49,186 nt of DNA from the NCBI GenBank assembly GCA_024639325.1, contig JAHEIO010000012.1, positions 15,966 to 65,151 on the forward strand, written 5' to 3'. The DNA is from Gammaproteobacteria bacterium (GTDB lineage Bacteria > Pseudomonadota > Gammaproteobacteria > Arenicellales > JAANXG01). Every line of letters begins with the position of its first letter. The first letter of the stretch is position 1. The notes beneath the pieces were generated by a model. It saw only the letters and a list, made by a program, of their open reading frames with translations, had not been told where the DNA came from and searched no databases. The position numbers were made by a program, and so were the translations under genes. This document shows positions 20,023 to 48,848 of the stretch, piece by piece.

Positions 20023-20125
20023 GTAGGAGCGGCGCCCCCGCCGCGATAGGGCAATCGGTGTTGTAGGAGCGGCGCCCCGCCGCGATAGGGCAATCGGTGT
20101 TGTAGGAGCGGCGCCCCGCCGCGAT
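20023..20125 (+). repeat. Three tandem REP-like units
   Basis: The core GTAGGAGCGGCGCCCCGCCG followed by CGAT occurs at 20023-20047 (one extra C), 20063-20086 and 20102-20125. The 39-40 nt spacing comes from an identical linker AGGGCAATCGGTGTT. Each core can fold into a GCGGCG/CGCCGC stem. A fourth copy lies after purF (48827-48848). They resemble the dispersed GTAGGAGC-type REP elements of gammaproteobacteria and sit between convergent genes. Confidence 0.85.
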
Positions 20126-20161: not shown

Positions 20162-21151
20162 TTATTTCAGCGCGCCGCCGCAGCTCGAGCCGGCGCCCGC
20201 GGTACATCCGAAACAATGTGTGCCGACCGCTATCGGGCGGTTGGTCACGTCGTCGGGCTGCAGGTCCCAGAGATAGCGCTCTTTGCTTCCGCCGTAGGGT
20301 AGTTCAAGCATCTGGTTGAAATCGCAATCGAACACTCGTCCCTGCCAGTCCACGCTGATCAGATGGCGGCACATCAGGGCACTCACCGTGCTTGCCCTGA
20401 AATTTTCAACCAGCAGCTTCAGGTAATCCCGCCGTTGGCCGGTGCGATCCAGATAGTGGGCGAATCGGCTGATCGGCAGGTTGGTAATCGTCAACAAACT
20501 GTTGAATACAATGTCAAATTCGTCCAGCAGGCGGAGTTTGTAATGCGCTTCCAGTTTTTGCTGGTCAGGCGGCAGGAACGCGCCCCCCGGGTTGTAAACC
20601 AGATCGAGGACCAGCCCTTGATCGCGACCGTACCCAAGTTCGTTCAGAAGCACCAGGGCCTCGATGCTTTTCTGAAACACGCCGTCGCCGCGCTGCGCGT
20701 CGACGTTGCTCTTGGTATAGCACGGCAGCGAGCAGACCAGATGAACTCCTCTTTCGGCATACCATTGCGCGGTGTCGGTAAAGCCGGGTTCCAGAAGTAT
20801 GGACAGGTTGCAGCGGGAAGTTACGTGGATCCCTTTGGCGAGGAAACGGTCCACGATGCCGCGGAATCCGGGATTCATTTCCGGCGCCCCGCCGGTTATG
20901 TCCACACGCTCGATCCGTTGATTCTCGGCCCAGCCGATGATTCTGATTGCCGTGTCCCACGTCATGATTTCGGAACGTTTGGGACCGGCATCGACATGGC
21001 AGTGATTACATGCCTGATTGCACAACTTTCCCAGATTGATCTGCAATTCGCGCAGTTCCGAGCGACGCAGCGGTGCGAGTCCGCTTGCGCCGAGTACGCG
21101 AGTGAATGAGGGATCCAGCATGGCAGGTTGGACCACGTGCATGTAATTCAT
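20162..21151 (-). CDS. arsS: ArsS-like radical SAM / Cys-rich protein
   Basis: A 329-residue radical SAM enzyme. The [4Fe-4S]-SAM cluster motif CNQACNHC (C44, C48, C51) is followed by ITGGAPEMNPGFRGIVDRF. The C-terminus is Cys-rich: CFGCTAGAGSSCGGALK and an earlier DCDFNQMLELPYG. This matches, from memory, the radical SAM/Cys-rich family named ArsS after its role in arsenosugar synthesis. There is no arsM or other ars gene nearby. It lies 66 nt downstream of doxX on the same strand, at the end of the bufferin-type genes, so a role in that pathway or in metal/metalloid handling is open. Confidence 0.85.
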   Translation of the reverse strand: MNYMHVVQPAMLDPSFTRVLGASGLAPLRRSELRELQINLGKLCNQACNHCHVDAGPKRSEIMTWDTAIRIIGWAENQRIERVDITGGAPEMNPGFRGIVDRFLAKGIHVTSRCNLSILLEPGFTDTAQWYAERGVHLVCSLPCYTKSNVDAQRGDGVFQKSIEALVLLNELGYGRDQGLVLDLVYNPGGAFLPPDQQKLEAHYKLRLLDEFDIVFNSLLTITNLPISRFAHYLDRTGQRRDYLKLLVENFRASTVSALMCRHLISVDWQGRVFDCDFNQMLELPYGGSKERYLWDLQPDDVTNRPIAVGTHCFGCTAGAGSSCGGALK

Positions 21152-21217
21152 CGAGTGTTTTCCCCCAAATTCAAATTCCTCGAGCGGTCAATAATCCGTT
21201 GATTGAAAGCGAGACTG

Positions 21218-21679
21218 CTATGGCAATGTGTCTTCCATATATTTCTTTCTGATCAAATGGTCAATGGATATTTTACCCGGTCCGAAGAATATCGGTATCA
21301 GGAGCATGAGGCCCCAAAGCTGGTGCTGGTACACGCCAACCGGGTTCAATGTGGGGTAGGAAATGACGGCAATGATATTGAAGACAAACAGCGACACGGC
21401 AGCAAATCGGCCGCCGAGTCCGATGGCCAGCATGGCCGGAAACAATAATTCGGCGCCCGTTCCCAAATAGGCGGCAACCTTCGGGCTGAGTAGCGGAACC
21501 TGATATTCATGCTCGAACAGGAACAGGGTCGAATCCCAGCTCTGGAACTTGTTGACACCGGACTTCCAGAAATCCCAGGCTATCGACAACCGGATGCCGA
21601 GAAGCGCGATGGGCTGGAAAAACTCGAGCAGCTTGATGATGGGTCGTGCCAGACTCGTAAGCGTCGTTGTCACAGCCAT
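21218..21679 (-). CDS. DoxX-family membrane protein of the bufferin-type operon
   Basis: A 153-residue DoxX-like protein with about four membrane helices, including PIALLGIRLSIAWDFWKSGV, AELLFPAMLAIGLG and LWGLMLLIPIFFGPG. The pattern WKSGVNKFQSWDSTLFLFEHE is typical of DoxX proteins next to DUF692/DUF2063 genes. ATG 21679 is preferred over GTG 21688 because GAGG lies about 8 nt upstream of the ATG. It is the fourth gene after the precursor peptide, the usual place for a DoxX partner; its exact job there is unsettled (quinone-linked redox or metal transport have been suggested). Confidence 0.85.
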   Translation of the reverse strand: MAVTTTLTSLARPIIKLLEFFQPIALLGIRLSIAWDFWKSGVNKFQSWDSTLFLFEHEYQVPLLSPKVAAYLGTGAELLFPAMLAIGLGGRFAAVSLFVFNIIAVISYPTLNPVGVYQHQLWGLMLLIPIFFGPGKISIDHLIRKKYMEDTLP

Positions 21680-21728
21680 TAACTGCACCTCAGCAAGGTT
21701 AAGGGTGGTAGTCCGCCGCGCCTGAAAA

Positions 21729-22502
21729 TCAGCAAGCGGTAAAGTCGATCAGGGCTCGATTGCCAACGAAGCGGGACAGAAATCCGGTCAGATCGAATGC
21801 CGCATCGATGCGCTGTGCCGCGCCCAGGCAATCACCAAGCTGGTCGCCCCGGGCGAACATCGCGAGCATCGCGTAGTCACCGGCATCGAGAGGGTGCAGT
21901 TCAATCTCCTCGCCTTGCCTGAGCAAGAGGACATTCACGGCTCCGGCATCCAGGTCCACGGTCTGGTCTCCACTATAGCCTTCCTGATTGACGCGCCAGA
22001 TTTCGATGACCGGAAAAACCGATTGCATGAGTCGGCAGGCCGGATTCAGTCTGAATTGCAATCGTTCATATTGATCGGGGGCAATCAGCTGCAGCGCGTC
22101 GACGTCCATGGCATCGGCATCGGCTTCGTGGTAAACCTCGTGGTAGTTCCACTCCAGCTGCGCGACATCGGGCAGGTAAGACAATTTCTTCGCGGGCTCG
22201 AAGGTCGCGAGAAACGAACCGAATCCGCTACCGAAGGCGTGCAGGTCGCCGCTGGTGGACGGATTGCGTTTTATGAACTCATTGCTTGCATAGAGAAAAA
22301 ATCCTTCACCAACCAGCTTTTCGACAACCGGATAAACAGCGCGCAGTGCATCCGTCAGTCCGGTAAATACGTTGTTACGATATACCTGAAGCCTCAGGCG
22401 TGGCTCGAATGCGCCGGCTTTGACGTCCGCGGCAATCCCCACCGCATCGGCGTCCAGGACGTTCGCGCTGAACCGTTCCTGGACCTCACGCAACCCGGGC
22501 AT
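21729..22502 (-). CDS. bufC: DUF2063 protein, BufC/HvfC-like partner of the DUF692 enzyme
   Basis: A 257-residue protein. The N-terminal DUF2063 region has MPGLREVQERFSANVLD, RLQVYRNNVFTGLTDALR and AVYPVVEKLVGEGFF. DVAQLEWNYHEVYHEADA is also family-typical. Such proteins bind the DUF692 oxidase and present the leader peptide of the precursor, comparable to MbnC in methanobactin synthesis. The open frame starts at 22544; ATG 22502 gives the family N-terminus and a 17-nt overlap with bufB, which suggests coupled translation of the two subunits. Confidence 0.87.
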   Translation of the reverse strand: MPGLREVQERFSANVLDADAVGIAADVKAGAFEPRLRLQVYRNNVFTGLTDALRAVYPVVEKLVGEGFFLYASNEFIKRNPSTSGDLHAFGSGFGSFLATFEPAKKLSYLPDVAQLEWNYHEVYHEADADAMDVDALQLIAPDQYERLQFRLNPACRLMQSVFPVIEIWRVNQEGYSGDQTVDLDAGAVNVLLLRQGEEIELHPLDAGDYAMLAMFARGDQLGDCLGAAQRIDAAFDLTGFLSRFVGNRALIDFTAC

Positions 22503-23355
22503 GATCGGTCTCCTGCATGACGCTCTGCGCAATATTCGCCTCATCCACGAGCACGTCGAGTTCGGGCAAATCGGAATCCCATTCGATCAGGGTGGGTTTT
22601 GGCCCGTACATTGCGATGGCTTCACGATACAACGCCCAGACCTGGGGGCACACACGGTGGTCATGGGTGTCTATTATTATCGTACCCTGGTCATAGTGCT
22701 TGATGGTGTGGCCTGCGAGGTGGATCTCCCGGACCCGGGAGCCGGGTACCCGATGCAGGAAATCACCGGCGCTGAAGCCGTGGTTGTGCGCGTTGACGTA
22801 GATGTTATTGATGTCGAGCAGAAGGTCACAGTCGGCACTCTCCGCCACCGAGGCCACGAATTCCCATTCGCTCAGGTGGGAGTGTTCGAACTCCAGATAG
22901 CACGATACGTTCTCCACCATGATGGGTCGTTCGAGAATATCCTGTACCTGATGGATTCGCTCCACCAGATGGTTGACCACTTCCTCGGTATAGGGCAGGG
23001 GGAGAAGGTCGTTCAGATACCGTCCGCCAAATGATCCCCAGGAAAGGTGCTCTGACACGAAATCGGGCTGGTAGGCATCGATTAATTGCCCGAGCCGGCG
23101 CAAATGATCTCTATCGAGCGGATCGGTCGACCCCAAAGACAATCCGACCCCGTGAAAACTCAACGGGTAGTCGCGCCGAATGCGTTCCAGGTAAGCGTGA
23201 GGGACGCCGCCCCTGCCGAAGTAATTTTCACTGTGTACTTCCAGGAAGCCAACCTTCGGACTGGATTCAACGACCTCCCTATAATGCGGGCCCCGCAACC
23301 CGATCCCGGCGGAAGCCGGGATCGGATCACAGGTGAAAAATTCCCGATCAGGCAC
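22486..23355 (-). CDS. bufB: DUF692 multinuclear iron oxidase, BufB/HvfB-like
   Basis: A 289-residue DUF692 protein (TIM barrel, MbnB family) expected to oxidise Cys residues of the precursor peptide. Motifs: GIGLRGPHYREV, VGFLEVHSENYFG, LSFHGVGLSLGS, FVSEHLSWG, MVENVSCYLEFE, LLLDINNIYVNAHNHG, EIHLAGH and IDTHDHRVCPQVW. No ATG exists at the expected position. GTG 23355, overlapping the bufA TGA by 8 nt, is the best start. An in-frame ATG at 23427 would put 80 nt inside bufA. The first codons run through a perfect hairpin (23301-23324), which may limit translation relative to bufA. Confidence 0.9.
   Translation of the reverse strand: MPDREFFTCDPIPASAGIGLRGPHYREVVESSPKVGFLEVHSENYFGRGGVPHAYLERIRRDYPLSFHGVGLSLGSTDPLDRDHLRRLGQLIDAYQPDFVSEHLSWGSFGGRYLNDLLPLPYTEEVVNHLVERIHQVQDILERPIMVENVSCYLEFEHSHLSEWEFVASVAESADCDLLLDINNIYVNAHNHGFSAGDFLHRVPGSRVREIHLAGHTIKHYDQGTIIIDTHDHRVCPQVWALYREAIAMYGPKPTLIEWDSDLPELDVLVDEANIAQSVMQETDHARVA
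23301..23324 (-). repeat. Perfect 10-bp hairpin at the bufA/bufB junction
   Basis: CGATCCCGGC (23301-23310) and GCCGGGATCG (23315-23324) are perfect arms with a 4-nt loop. It lies in the first codons of bufB and could act as an attenuator or mRNA-stability element setting the precursor:enzyme ratio. It may also be a captured dispersed repeat; the amino acids it encodes still fit the family (IPASAGIGLR). Confidence 0.7.
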
Positions 23356-23602
23356 TTTCCAGGTTGCCGCCGACCAACTTTTCGCAGGATCCTGTCGGAA
23401 CCAGGACAAATGCGTCTTTCTGTCCATCCGCCTTGGAGGTGCCGGCACAGGAAGAATTAGCGGTCTGACAGTCGTTCTTACCCGCCTTGGCGACGCCGTA
23501 GCATTTTTCCATTTCGGCTGCGCTGGCATTCATCGCGACGCCGCTTACGCCCAATGCGATGAGACCGGAAATTGCACTGTTGATCAAAGTTCTGCGTTTC
23601 AT
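23348..23602 (-). CDS. bufA: DUF2282 bufferin-type RiPP precursor peptide
   Basis: An 84-residue precursor. Residues 1-29 form a signal peptide (MKRRTL, hydrophobic ISGLIALGVSGVAM, then NASAA). The mature part has four cysteines (C34, C45, C52, C73) in the DUF2282 pattern EKCYGVAKAGKNDC, NSSCAGTS and VPTGSCEKLVGG. In characterised bufferins, cysteines are converted to Cu-binding heterocycles by the DUF692/DUF2063 pair, and the exported peptide buffers copper. ATG 23602 has a strong ribosome binding site (AGGAG, 5 nt spacer); an upstream in-frame start at 23653 lacks support. First gene of bufA-bufB-bufC-doxX. Copper binding here is inferred from the family. Confidence 0.9.
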   Translation of the reverse strand: MKRRTLINSAISGLIALGVSGVAMNASAAEMEKCYGVAKAGKNDCQTANSSCAGTSKADGQKDAFVLVPTGSCEKLVGGNLESA

Positions 23603-23799: not shown

Positions 23800-24903
23800 T
23801 CACGCGTTGTGACAGCGAAAAGCCGCCAGAACGGTGCTGTACTGGTGCAAATGGCTATATTCGCCGATGGGCGCAATCTCGCCGTTGCCGTAAAAACCGA
23901 TCAGGGGCGTGCCGGGAAATATCTCGCGGGTCATGGCCATGTCCTTGTCGGTTCCCCCGAAGAAAAGCGGACCGCGGCTCAGGCAGGGAAACATGATCGC
24001 AAAATCCGGTACACCGCCCAGAGACCGGCGGCAGCTCAGAGCCGCATCACGCATGGTGCGTTCCGCCGTCAGTCGGTCGCGGATGGCCCAGAACAACCTC
24101 TCGCCCGGGCGCAGTGGGTGCGACAGGGTAATGGAACGATCTTCGGGATTCGCAGATACGATGTGATCCAACCGAAAGCGTCCCTCGTCTATGGCGGTTT
24201 CAGGCTCACCAAACGTGACGCCGCACATGACCATGTGCAGGGGAAGCTGCTCGCGCTTTCTGACCTCATCGGGCAGCGCATTAATCAGAACGTGCAGCGC
24301 GGGATAACTGGCAATACGGCGAATATCGTACCCCGTGGCCTCGTCGACCTCCATGGGCGCCGTAAGCACCTGTATGCCCCTGGCCGCGGCAACCTCCGAG
24401 CTGACGCCGTTAATGGCCACCTCCATGAATCCGTCCTTCACCAGGGCACCTGATTGCCATATGGCGAACGGGCCGTGTCCGAACTCGTCGCTCGTAATTG
24501 CGCCAAAGCGCCTGACCGGCTCGTCAAGCCAGCTTGCGGAGACGGCATTTGGAGTGCACAAACAGAGCCTGAGCTGATTGGGGTCAGACTGCTGACTCAA
24601 ACCCAGATGGACTTGTTCGGTGAACACCATGGCGGCTGCGCCGGAGCTGTCGATGACCCATTCTTCCTCGGTCAACAGACCCATTCCGGTTGCCCCGGTT
24701 ACCTGGGTGCAGCTGGCGGCGCGGGCGGCGGCCCTCACCGCCGGCAACGGGTCGTGAGCATAGTCTCCGGTGAGAAACAACAAAACGGCATTGGCACGCG
24801 TGGCCTCCGCTTTGTCGAGTGCGCGATGTACGGCACGACTGACGTGCCCCAATCTGTCGGGTCGCCCATGGCTGAGACCGGTTGCGACGGGGTTGTGCTG
24901 CAT
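23800..24903 (-). CDS. FIST-domain sensor protein
   Basis: A 367-residue FIST_N plus FIST_C protein. Family features: ANAVLLFLTGDYAHD, TGATGMGLLTEEEW, SLGGVPDFAIMFPCLSRG, and the C-terminal FFGGTDKDMAMTREIFPGTP, LIGFYGNGEIAPIG. FIST proteins are thought to sense small ligands and often stand next to signalling or redox genes. No output domain is fused. Start ATG 24903, with a GTG one codon earlier also possible. It lies 51 nt after nth and 197 nt before bufA on the same strand, so a regulatory link to bufferin production is possible but not shown. Confidence 0.9.
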   Translation of the reverse strand: MQHNPVATGLSHGRPDRLGHVSRAVHRALDKAEATRANAVLLFLTGDYAHDPLPAVRAAARAASCTQVTGATGMGLLTEEEWVIDSSGAAAMVFTEQVHLGLSQQSDPNQLRLCLCTPNAVSASWLDEPVRRFGAITSDEFGHGPFAIWQSGALVKDGFMEVAINGVSSEVAAARGIQVLTAPMEVDEATGYDIRRIASYPALHVLINALPDEVRKREQLPLHMVMCGVTFGEPETAIDEGRFRLDHIVSANPEDRSITLSHPLRPGERLFWAIRDRLTAERTMRDAALSCRRSLGGVPDFAIMFPCLSRGPLFFGGTDKDMAMTREIFPGTPLIGFYGNGEIAPIGEYSHLHQYSTVLAAFRCHNA

Positions 24904-24954
24904 CACTGGTTTGCGTTCGATTGCATGGAAACTGTGAATGTTGGTATCTGCAGT

Positions 24955-25596
24955 TTAAATCATACAGGCAGTCTTCTCGGGATACTCGCACACATCGCGA
25001 ATCACGCATTCAGTACATTTCGGCGAGCGCGCGGTGCAGGTATACCTGCCGTGCAGAATCAGCCAGTGGTGGGCGTCTTGCTTGAAGCGATCCGGGACCG
25101 CCCGCAGCAGGTGTTCTTCCACGGCAAGCGGAGTCTTGCCGGGTGCCAGGCCGGTGCGGTTCGCGACCCTGAAAATATGCGTGTCCACCGCAATCGTGGG
25201 CTGCCCGAATGCCGTGTTCAACACGACGTTCGCGGTCTTTCTGCCGACGCCGGGCAGGGCCTCCAGACCCCGTCGATCCCTGGGTACCTCGCCCTCATGT
25301 TTTTCCGCCAGGATGCGGGCGGTAGCTACGATGTTCCTCGCCTTGCTGTTGAACAGCCCAATGCTCCTGATGTAGGGCGTCAGTCCCTCAACGCCGAGTT
25401 TTGCCATGGCCCGCGGCGTGTCGGCAACGCGGAACAGCGTTTTCGTTGCCTTGTTCACGCTGATATCGGTAGCCTGTGCCGACAGCATTACCGCCACCAG
25501 CAGTTCGAATTCGGAGTCATATTCCAGTTCGGTAGTGGGGGCAGGCATACTCCGCTTGAGGCGGGTGAACAGCCTTGTACACGCTTTTTTGTCCAT
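24955..25596 (-). CDS. nth: Endonuclease III
   Basis: A 213-residue base-excision repair glycosylase/AP lyase for oxidised pyrimidines. Seen: VAVMLSAQATDISVNKAT, the helix-hairpin-helix LPGVGRKTANVVLN with the catalytic Lys, VDTHIFRVANRTGL with the catalytic Asp, and the terminal [4Fe-4S] motif C-x6-C-x2-C-x5-C (CTARSPKCTECVIRDVC). Length equals the E. coli enzyme. It is 13 nt after the RnfB-like gene, a neighbour pair common in proteobacteria. Confidence 0.97.
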   Translation of the reverse strand: MDKKACTRLFTRLKRSMPAPTTELEYDSEFELLVAVMLSAQATDISVNKATKTLFRVADTPRAMAKLGVEGLTPYIRSIGLFNSKARNIVATARILAEKHEGEVPRDRRGLEALPGVGRKTANVVLNTAFGQPTIAVDTHIFRVANRTGLAPGKTPLAVEEHLLRAVPDRFKQDAHHWLILHGRYTCTARSPKCTECVIRDVCEYPEKTACMI

Positions 25597-25609: not shown

Positions 25610-26290
25610 TCAGCGAAGTGTTCCGCGGCGTGACCGGACTCTGGCGACGGCAGCCGATATCTCTGTTTTCATACGCTGTTTCGAGTCGGCCCGTTTGAGC
25701 GCGAGATGCTTTTTTCTGAGAGCCTCGTCTCGCTCTTGTTTGCGCAGCCGGTCTATTCTGGTCCGGGTCTGCTCTCTGGCCCGGTGAACTTGTGCGGGAG
25801 AATACTCCCTCCACCGCCAGTGCGATTCGGCCACCGAGGCGCCCGCCGGAATGAGATCGATACAGTCCACGGGACATGGGGGCAGGCAGAGTTCGCAGCC
25901 GGTGCAATCGTCCGATATCACGGTGTGCATCAGTTTCGGGCCGCCGACGATGGCGTCCACCGGACAGGCCTGAATGCACAAGGTACATCCGATGCACAGG
26001 CTTTCATCGATCACCGCCATCACTTTCGGTTTTGTCCGGCCGAACTCCGGATTCAGGGGTTTGCCGACGGTGTTCAGCAGCAGCGAGAGACCGGTGATCG
26101 TCTCGGTCCCGCCGGGCGGACACTGATTGATGTCCGCCCGGCCGTCACGGATTGCACGCGCGTATGCCACGCAGCGAGGGTAGCCGCACTGGGTGCACTG
26201 GGTCTGCGGCAGCCACTCGTCGATTTCCTCCACGGACGGCTTCGACGACTCGGCAAGGTCTCTGGCAATCACTGTGGTTTGCCGGGACAC
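25610..26290 (-). CDS. rsxB: RnfB/RsxB-like ferredoxin without membrane anchor
   Basis: A 226-residue iron-sulfur protein. An N-terminal four-Cys Fe-S domain ([10 protein letters not shown], then INQCPPGG) precedes two ferredoxin motifs, [16 protein letters not shown] and [19 protein letters not shown] long, highly charged C-terminal helix follows (about 160-226). The usual RnfB N-terminal membrane helix is absent: the GTG start at 26290 leads straight into [16 protein letters not shown]. No other rnf/rsx gene is in the window. It sits between metG and nth, an arrangement seen in bacteria that lack an adjacent full Rnf operon. Confidence 0.87.
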
Positions 26291-26309: not shown

Positions 26310-28343
26310 TCAGGTTACCTTCATCCCCGGGCTGGCGCCTTCATCGGGTGACAGCAGCCAGATGTCCCGTCCCCCGCCTCCGGCGGCAAGTACCATGCCT
26401 TCGGAAACGCCAAAACGCATCTTACGGGGCGCCAGATTCGCCACCACCACGACCATTTTTCCTGTCAGGTCCTGCGGTTCGTAAGCGCCCTTGATGCCTG
26501 CAAAAACCGTGCGCTGGTGGTCGCCCACATCCAGGCTGAGTTTGAGAAGTTTGTCGGCGCCCTCGACGTGGGCCGCGTCGAGGATTCGCGCGATGCGCAA
26601 ATCGACTTTGGCAAATTCGTCGATACCGATGTGCTTGCCGTCTTCGTCTACCGAGTCGTTCGGTGCCGGTGGGGTATTCACTTCTGGCTCGTTCATGCTG
26701 CTCTCGATCATATTCTGAATGCTTTTGCTTTCGACCCTTTTCATTAAATGCTGGTAAGGTTCAATGGGGTGGCCGACCAGGGGGCTGGCCAGCTTCGTCC
26801 ACGCACCGGGGGCGGACACGGGACAGTTCAGCAGGGATTCGACCCGGCCCGCCGTCACGGGAAGTACCGGGCTGAGGTAGGTCATCAGGACCCGGAACAG
26901 GTTGATCGCGAGGCTGCAGGTGTCGTGCAGATAGGCGCCCTGATCGGGGTCCCTGGCGATTTCCCAGGGTTTGTGCCGGGCGATGAACTGGTTCGCCTGG
27001 TCCGCCAACGCCATGATCTCGCGCATGGCGCGGCTGAATTCCCGCCGCTCGTAGTGATCGGCAATGCGCTCGCCGGCGGCAACGAACCGATCGTACATCT
27101 CCGGATCGAAAACATCGTCTGAAAGACGGCCTTCGAATCGCTTCTTGATGAATCCCGCGGTCCGGCTGGCGATGTTTACGACTTTGCCGACCAGATCGGA
27201 GTTTACCCGAGCGAGGAAGTCCTCCAAATTGAGATCCAGATCCTCGACCTGGCTGTTGAGCTTGCCGGCGAAGTAGTAGCGCAGATACTCGGGATTCAGG
27301 TGGTCGAGATAGGTGCGCGCCGTAATGAACGTGCCCCGGGACTTGGACATCTTCTGACCGTTGACGGTAAGGAATCCGTGTGCGTACACGGCGCTCGGCT
27401 TTCGGAACCCGGCGCCGTCCAGCATGGCGGGCCAGAACAAGGCGTGAAAGTAGAGGATGTCCTTGCCGATGAAATGCACCAGCTCATTGGGGGAATCCCT
27501 GCCCCAGAAGTCGTCGAAATCCAGTTCGCTTTTCGAGCACAGGTTGCTGAAGCTCGCCTGATATCCGATCGGGGCGTCCAGCCACACGTAGAAGTACTTG
27601 TCCTTCTCCCCGGGGATCCGAAATCCGAAATAGGGTGCGTCACGCGATATGTCCCAGTCCCGAAGACCCGCGTCGAACCATTCTTTGAGTTTGTTGCGGA
27701 CCTGGCTCTGCACGTGGTCGCCCTGGGTCCAAATTCTCAGCATTTCCTCGAAATCGCCCAGTCTGAAGAAAAAGTGCTCCGACTCCCTCTCCACCGGGGT
27801 CGCGCCCGACACAGCCGATACCGGGTTCTTGAGATCGGTGGCGCTGTAGGTCGAGCCGCAGTTTTCACAGCTGTCGCCGTACTGATCCGCCGTGCCGCAA
27901 ACCGGGCATTCCCCGCGAATGTAGCGGTCCGGAAGGAACATCGCCTTGACCGGATCGTATGCCTGCTTGATGACCCGGCGTACGATGTGGTTCCCCGCGT
28001 TCAGCCGGTTGTAAATATTCTCGGCGCACTCGCGGTTTTCCTCGGAGTGGGTGGTGTAGAAGTTGTCCAGGCTGATGTGAAATTCGTCGAAATCGGATCG
28101 ATGTTCCACCGCGATCCTTGCGATCAGCTCTTCCGGGGTGACGCCATCGGCCTCGGCTTTCAGCATGATAGGCGTGCCGTGCGCGTCGTCCGCGCAGACG
28201 TAAATGCACTCGTGACCTTGTAGCCGCTGGAATCGGACCCATATATCGGTCTGAATGTACTCCAGCATGTGTCCGATGTGTATCGGACCGTTGGCGTAAG
28301 GCAGAGCACTGGTTACCAGGATGCGGCGCTTGGTCGGGCTCAA
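26310..28343 (-). CDS. metG: Methionyl-tRNA synthetase
   Basis: A 677-residue MetRS of the long form. HIGH motif in [20 protein letters not shown], zinc knuckles [23 protein letters not shown] in [13 protein letters not shown], an anticodon-binding helical domain, and a C-terminal tRNA-binding OB domain ([20 protein letters not shown]). The start is TTG at 28343: it directly precedes the conserved [17 protein letters not shown] and has AAGGA 7 nt upstream, while an in-frame TAA blocks any earlier start. It is divergent from mrp/apbC, as in E. coli. Confidence 0.97.
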
Positions 28344-48785: not shown

Positions 48786-48826
48786 CCGATTCGATCCGAC
48801 GCCAAACCATGATTTTTTGGATTGGC

Positions 48827-48848
48827 GGGAGCGGCGCCCCGCCGCGAT
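48827..48848 (+). repeat. Single REP-like unit after purF
   Basis: GGGAGCGGCGCCCCGCCGCG followed by AT is the same core as the three tandem copies after dnaJ, in the same orientation relative to the plus strand. It lies between convergent purF and lpxH and can form a GCGGCG/CGCCGC stem, possibly acting as a terminator or mRNA 3' stabiliser. Confidence 0.75.

Follow-up and report, generated by a model that had tools for sequence, protein, structure and literature searches.

The window analyzed here is a 49,186-nucleotide (nt) stretch of a gammaproteobacterial contig (JAHEIO010000012.1) that carries, at 20162-23602, a bufferin-1 (Buf1) operon followed by a gene for an ArsS-like radical S-adenosylmethionine (SAM) enzyme. 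An earlier note on this DNA had described a complete bufferin gene set at this position, and profile searches bore this out, with matches to the DUF2282, MNIO, DUF2063 and DoxX models. In the order of transcription the genes are:

23348..23602, minus strand: bufA, bufferin-1 precursor of the DUF2282 type, 84 amino acids (aa) with four cysteines, ATG start (PF10048, 84 bits)
22486..23355, minus strand: bufB, MNIO bufferin maturase, GTG start (NF050167, 387.7 bits against a cut-off of 310; PF05114)
21729..22502, minus strand: bufC, the DUF2063 partner, ATG start (PF09836, 74.7 bits)
about 21218..21679, minus strand: doxX (PF07681, 56 bits; HvfX-family model, 66 bits, below its cut-off of 80)
20162..21151, minus strand: arsS, ArsS-like radical SAM gene, ATG start (TIGR04167, 426.5 bits against a cut-off of 300; PF12345, DUF3641; PF04055)

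The DUF2063 and DoxX models are both over their Pfam cut-offs, and the N-terminus of BufA, judged by eye, resembles a Sec signal peptide. The start of bufB overlaps the end of bufA, bufB and bufC overlap by 17 nt, and bufC is separated from doxX by 49 nt, or by 40 nt from an alternative upstream GTG start. As the earlier note had also stated, the radical SAM gene lies directly behind doxX on the same strand, at a distance of 66 nt. The locus thus has all four core genes and the four-cysteine precursor in common with Buf1 clusters and differs from them in having arsS directly behind doxX. Bufferin clusters are described as four core genes with extra conserved genes being extremely rare, in a 2025 survey that admitted unrelated genes only up to 10 bp away (PMC12452194). 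Under that rule a neighbor at 66 nt would be excluded, whereas the overlapping copies in four loci of family f11 or the copies 9 nt away in family f122, described below, would pass. The main text of that survey contains no mention of ArsS, DUF3641, arsenic or arsenosugar, and radical SAM appears in its reference list alone. Among the matches listed for literature on bufferin, MNIO, ArsS and arsenosugar, none links bufferin to ArsS. The window ArsS has Radical_SAM and DUF3641 as its only Pfam domains and contains both the cluster-binding CX3CX2C motif and the C-terminal cysteine motifs. No solved structure matched its sequence, and its PADLOC matches to viperin models were weak (E values of 1.7e-4 and 9.1e-4).

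We compared ArsS loci in 60 near genomes, the window genome included, 47 of which have an ArsS match over the cut-off; DNA was fetched around the 46 loci outside the window, giving 47 loci with the window. Wider sets comprised 109 genomes of the order and 369 genomes of the class, and the class-level searches scored at most six, eight or five first-look candidates per genome (five in the ArsM alignment search). The five genes occur on one strand in the same order at 20 of the 47 ArsS loci in complete form and at three more that are truncated by contig ends, the window's locus being counted; in G025 only bufC and doxX are visible at a contig end. Order-wide, 22 of the 80 ArsS genomes have, by position, an MNIO gene that precedes ArsS by about 2.5 kb or less. 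A radical SAM scan of named genome contigs kept 80 loci, four of which have buf genes beside arsS; three of these are contigs of G004, G008 and G040, and L090 is new. Outside the order, adjacency was judged from fetched loci, and at least two genomes of f122, which belongs to another order and surfaced via its BufB loci, repeat the five-gene arrangement, with doxX and arsS 9 nt apart and nth and FIST genes upstream. In f11 the doxX-arsS gap ranges from -4 to 30 nt, the two genes overlapping in four of six loci when the first start codon is taken. The five-gene order pointed out in the earlier note is thus conserved, and a recent chance linkage in one genome can be ruled out by the 23 of 47 ArsS loci together with the two f122 genomes.

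Further bufferin-type loci were also inspected for arsS. None was seen at 15 further MNIO loci from the order, several of them truncated where their contigs end. Elsewhere in the class, arsS was present at 2 of 11 BufB-type loci. These 11 were picked from 16 fetched loci because their matches, at about 795 bp, were as long as that of the window BufB; one of the others, L201, stops 188 nt past doxX, so that the presence of arsS there is not judgeable. Family f125 (G172, G288) was rejected as a case of the same arrangement: its MNIO gene, next to an ArsS-ArsM pair, is on the strand opposite to ArsS and some 4 kb away from it. L192 and L193 from this family show an MNIO-DUF2063 pair at about 4 kb from, and on the opposite strand to, the ArsS-ArsM pair. 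In a BufB tree, from which linked BufB shorter than 200 aa (contig ends) were omitted, 20 linked BufB form one clade (80/72), and the BufB of f122 and L090 fall apart from it. The buf genes may thus have arrived next to arsS independently more than once, but a single origin is not rejected (approximately unbiased [AU] test, p = 0.23).

The arsS gene keeps its place in the absence of buf genes. Upstream of bufA in the window lies a block of four genes:

23800..24906, minus strand: FIST-domain gene (PF10442, PF08495)
24955..25596, minus strand: nth, endonuclease III (TIGR01083)
25610..26290, minus strand: rnfB (TIGR01944)
26310..28343, minus strand: metG, methionyl-tRNA synthetase, a 677-aa open reading frame named by eye

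At least one gene of this block is found upstream of arsS, on the same strand, at 17 of the 23 buf-linked loci and at 17 of the 24 buf-less loci, and a FIST gene precedes arsS at 17 of the 47 loci, buf being present or not. Seven of the 13 loci without the block have no upstream DNA, one of them (G014) carrying the block on the other side in the opposite orientation; G036 and G054 have arsenosugar-type clusters in its place, and in G026, G030, G035 and G046 it is absent though upstream DNA is available. Since the block and arsS occur both with and without buf genes, the buf cassette is, or once was, flanked by two stable elements, the block on one side and arsS on the other.

Phylogeny gave a matching picture. 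In both ArsS trees all nth-linked and buf-linked ArsS that were included form one clade (99/97, 54 rows; 100/99, 56 rows with f122 added) that is separate from the ArsS of arsenosugar clusters, and buf-linked and buf-less ArsS are interleaved within it. The second tree omits four distant long-branch rows of the first, many more distant loci are in neither, and eight loci duplicating relatives' contigs were left out of the trees and of the ArsS residue comparison below. On the ArsS tree the buf state needs seven changes, two of them forced by starred branches, a count that is blind to gain versus loss. The ArsS of L082, a contig titled Nitrospira, also falls inside the clade of the window locus, with metG- and FIST-family genes before it and, behind it, a TIGR04282 gene and another, unscanned glycosyltransferase from that cluster; the contig may be mistitled, or the genes may have been acquired by transfer.

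ArsS follows the arsenosugar glycosyltransferase TIGR04282 far more closely than it follows MNIO; all co-occurrence figures given here ignore kinship, and many of the genomes are incomplete. Across the class, 175 genomes have both ArsS and TIGR04282, 8 ArsS only, 18 TIGR04282 only and 168 neither (odds ratio 204), so that the two are concordant in 343 of 369 genomes and TIGR04282 is present in 175/183 genomes with ArsS versus 18/186 without. The corresponding counts for ArsS and MNIO are 120, 63, 100 and 86 (odds ratio 1.6, p = 0.026). Within the order, ArsS occurs in 80 genomes, MNIO in 48 and both in 41 (p = 0.016), leaving 39 of the 80 ArsS genomes with no MNIO detected; in two of these (G003, G025) the contig breaks off. 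Among the 60 near genomes the counts are 45, 2, 2 and 11 for ArsS and TIGR04282 over the cut-off, and 33, 14, 4 and 9 for ArsS and MNIO (p = 0.021). Behind argG, the window genome itself encodes TIGR04283 (232.7 bits against a cut-off of 182) and then TIGR04282 (147.4 bits against a cut-off of 134).

We compared ArsS residues among 24 buf-linked, 26 nth-linked and 51 arsenosugar-context sequences, 18 other loci being unused; a locus counted as arsenosugar context if an ArsM-, glycosyltransferase- or permease-family gene lay no more than 6 kb away. Cysteines C44, C48, C51, C261, C276, C313, C316 and C324 are present in the window ArsS and invariant among both buf-linked and arsenosugar-context sequences. 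Most columns with one residue in at least 95% of the 51 arsenosugar-context ArsS retain it in more than 90% of the buf-linked and of the nth-linked sequences, the exceptions being L36, F130, L169, L180, R262 and F274. No column differs in consensus between buf-linked ArsS (90% threshold) and nth-linked ArsS (80% threshold); D54, an aspartate in 96% of the buf-linked and 58% of the nth-linked sequences, is the sole column of its kind. On the precursor side, an alignment that includes the window BufA and omits eight BufA-like rows at 60 bits or below has no residue that is fixed in the 24 linked BufA and absent from all 14 unlinked BufA.

Our reading, to which we assign a probability of roughly two in three (0.68), is that a canonical Buf1 operon lies before, and is probably co-transcribed with, the ArsS of an arsenosugar-type pathway, and that this enzyme is not a bufferin modifier. 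Beyond the observed gene identities, synteny and co-occurrence, we infer the transcription unit, the chemistry and the substrate of the locus as follows. With bufABC-doxX sitting between the old metG-rnfB-nth-FIST block and arsS, arsS would probably be the last co-transcribed gene. By analogy with the published family, in which the modified cysteines of Buf1 are the central ones (PMC12452194; see PMC12668002 on thiooxazole metallophores), BufB and BufC would convert the two central BufA cysteines to thiooxazoles, and the exported BufA would bind copper. ArsS would act separately, most likely transferring the SAM-derived 5'-deoxyadenosyl group onto a trivalent (organo)metalloid, the reaction published for ArsS; arsenic adenosylation in arsenosugar biosynthesis is attributed to a radical SAM enzyme (review PMC12159101, citing Cheng 2021). 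At a different site of the genome, the TIGR04283 and TIGR04282 glycosyltransferases that follow argG would take part in this arsenosugar-type pathway. What buf and arsS would have in common is a place, probably a transcript and perhaps a response to metal stress, with no common substrate.

A number of observations weigh against this reading. No ArsM was found in the window genome, which is 95.55% complete: the best hit was a generic methyltransferase at 84 bits when all 32 candidates were scored, and no match to the ArsM alignment at 1e-30 was obtained among the best 5 of 24 candidates scored. Class-wide, 104 of the 183 ArsS genomes were not matched by the ArsM alignment. W130 and Y131 mark the buf-linked and nth-linked ArsS, where the arsenosugar set has F and mostly L, and position 140 carries C throughout the buf-linked set and in 85% of nth-linked sequences, against A in 94% of arsenosugar-context ones; because of these three residues the substrate of the clade may differ from that of arsenosugar-context ArsS. 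In addition, the buf-arsS adjacency is held in five families of the order and in f122, which together with the tight spacing in f11 and f122 looks like a real operon, and a weak association of ArsS with MNIO is seen at the class, order and near-genome scales.

The missing ArsM in the window genome and the three clade-specific residues speak for the possibility that the nth-linked ArsS clade adenosylates another metalloid or a small thiol, still together with TIGR04283 and TIGR04282. Compared with arsenosugar clusters (ArsS, ArsM, TIGR04282, TIGR04283), the window has an ArsS over the cut-off with a conserved cysteine set and both glycosyltransferases in the genome, and differs in that arsS is distant from the glycosyltransferases, buf and nth genes adjoin it, ArsM was not found, and W130/Y131/C140 are present. 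Thirty of the 47 ArsS genomes among the relatives likewise lack an ArsM match above 160 bits, while TIGR04282 is retained over its cut-off in 45 of 47. ArsM matches above 160 bits among the near genomes are confined to those with ArsS (17/47 with, 0/13 without), and across the class the ArsM alignment was matched in 79/183 ArsS genomes and in 10/186 others. On the other side, an ArsM match is present in eight genomes of f10 and five of f1 whose ArsS belongs to this clade, the latter (G005, G008, G009, G010 and G011, from the window's own family) with buf-linked ArsS and matches of at least 183 bits. Most invariant ArsS columns are kept, other ArsM types may have escaped detection, and dimethylated arsenic could derive from neighboring organisms. 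We consider a changed substrate unlikely on balance, while giving it some weight. The earlier note had regarded arsenosugar or ArsM genes linked elsewhere to the radical SAM gene as speaking against its proposal; the co-occurrence with TIGR04282 and TIGR04283 provides such a tie, and the ArsM part was not found in the window genome. The note had likewise counted a lack of conserved adjacency, combined with separate transcription, against it; the adjacency is conserved.

It is also conceivable, and we judge it rather improbable, that the arrangement is a coincidence in which arsS has its own promoter and a buf cassette landed upstream once and was then inherited or lost. The 66-nt gap would leave room for this account, the seven changes of buf state (two forced) would fit it, and so would the single clade of 20 linked BufB. 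Arguing against it are the doxX-arsS overlap in four of six f11 loci and the linkage in f122 and L090, whose BufB lie elsewhere on the tree, although a single origin is not rejected. The window's doxX-arsS gap contains no promoter-like or terminator-like match either; this negative is weak because the crude scan turned up fewer such sites across the entire region than in shuffled versions of it (0 versus a mean of 2.1, and 2 versus 5.3).

The earlier note had proposed that the radical SAM enzyme could extend the bufferin pathway, either by modifying the peptide further or by handling a metal or metalloid ligand. In the form weighed here, the enzyme would modify bufferin further, or would adenosylate or load a metalloid on the thiooxazole sulfurs, giving a five-gene variant. 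The conserved order and strand of the five genes, the overlaps and short gaps in f11 and f122 and the weak co-occurrence with MNIO speak for this proposal. It is not borne out by the remaining data, and we strongly doubt it: arsS stays at the locus without buf genes, about half of the ArsS genomes of the order (39/80) lack a detected MNIO, ArsS tracks TIGR04282, arsS is at 0/15 further order MNIO loci (some contig-cut) and 2/11 class BufB-type loci, there is no linkage-specific BufA residue nor any consensus difference between linked and buf-less ArsS, and the protein has no Pfam domain beyond Radical_SAM and DUF3641. A role as bufferin maturase was rejected on the same co-occurrence, buf-less loci and lack of private residues. 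In its fullest form the idea would make the five genes one functional cluster, shared by two orders of a single class, whose ArsS-type enzyme targets bufferin, for instance through adenosylation of a thiooxazole-held metalloid. This is very unlikely, though if true copper buffering and arsenic detoxification would converge on one peptide.

Downstream of arsS, on the opposite strand, lie dnaJ (identified by profile) and then dnaK, grpE and hrcA (by eye). As the earlier note had observed, no arsenic gene is beside the radical SAM gene; this holds for the immediate neighbors (FIST, nth, rnfB, metG, dnaJ, dnaK, grpE and hrcA), the rest of the 49-kb window not having been family-scanned. A repeat search found one further feature:

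20063..20125, no strand assigned: GC-rich 24-nt repeat in two identical copies, in the arsS-dnaJ interval

This repeat, which we take to be similar to repetitive extragenic palindromic (REP) elements, sits between the convergent ends of the two genes, with a third degenerate copy nearby (by eye) and a further copy with two mismatches at 48825-48848.

Several variants were seen at other MNIO and bufferin loci. Among the 15 further order MNIO loci, L188, L190 and L191 have DUF2282 precursors and seven have no profile-matched precursor. L177, L178, L179, L186 and L189 (families f1, f3 and f7) encode short cysteine-rich precursors with weak scores and a CKG pattern, perhaps Buf2-like; the precursor of L179, the only one of these that was scanned, has no Pfam match. 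In f10, an MNIO-DUF2063 fusion of 550-565 aa (PF05114 and PF09836) is encoded at L205:4127-5779 (G051) and L206:3980-5677 (G043), beside two DUF2282-type precursors in L205 and one in L206; MNIO frames of 538-584 aa occur in 17 f10 genomes, the domain scan for the fusion covering L205 and L206. In G035 (L065:1674-2740) two tandem bufA genes precede bufB. An alignment of f1 DNA upstream of bufA, judged by eye, shows a GAAACTT...GTC-like pair about 13 nt apart in L043, L050, L042, L054 and L047, reminiscent of an extracytoplasmic function (ECF) sigma factor promoter; by the same inspection no motif, this pair included, was seen in the window.

For the mining of ribosomally synthesized and post-translationally modified peptides (RiPPs), this locus illustrates that conserved adjacency can mislead, as arsS keeps its place without the cluster and tracks a different pathway. 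Where ArsM went undetected, the ArsS clade is nevertheless tied to separately encoded TIGR04283 and TIGR04282, and the substrate of ArsS in such genomes becomes a matter of interest. A shared transcript would place copper buffering and an arsenosugar-type pathway under one control.

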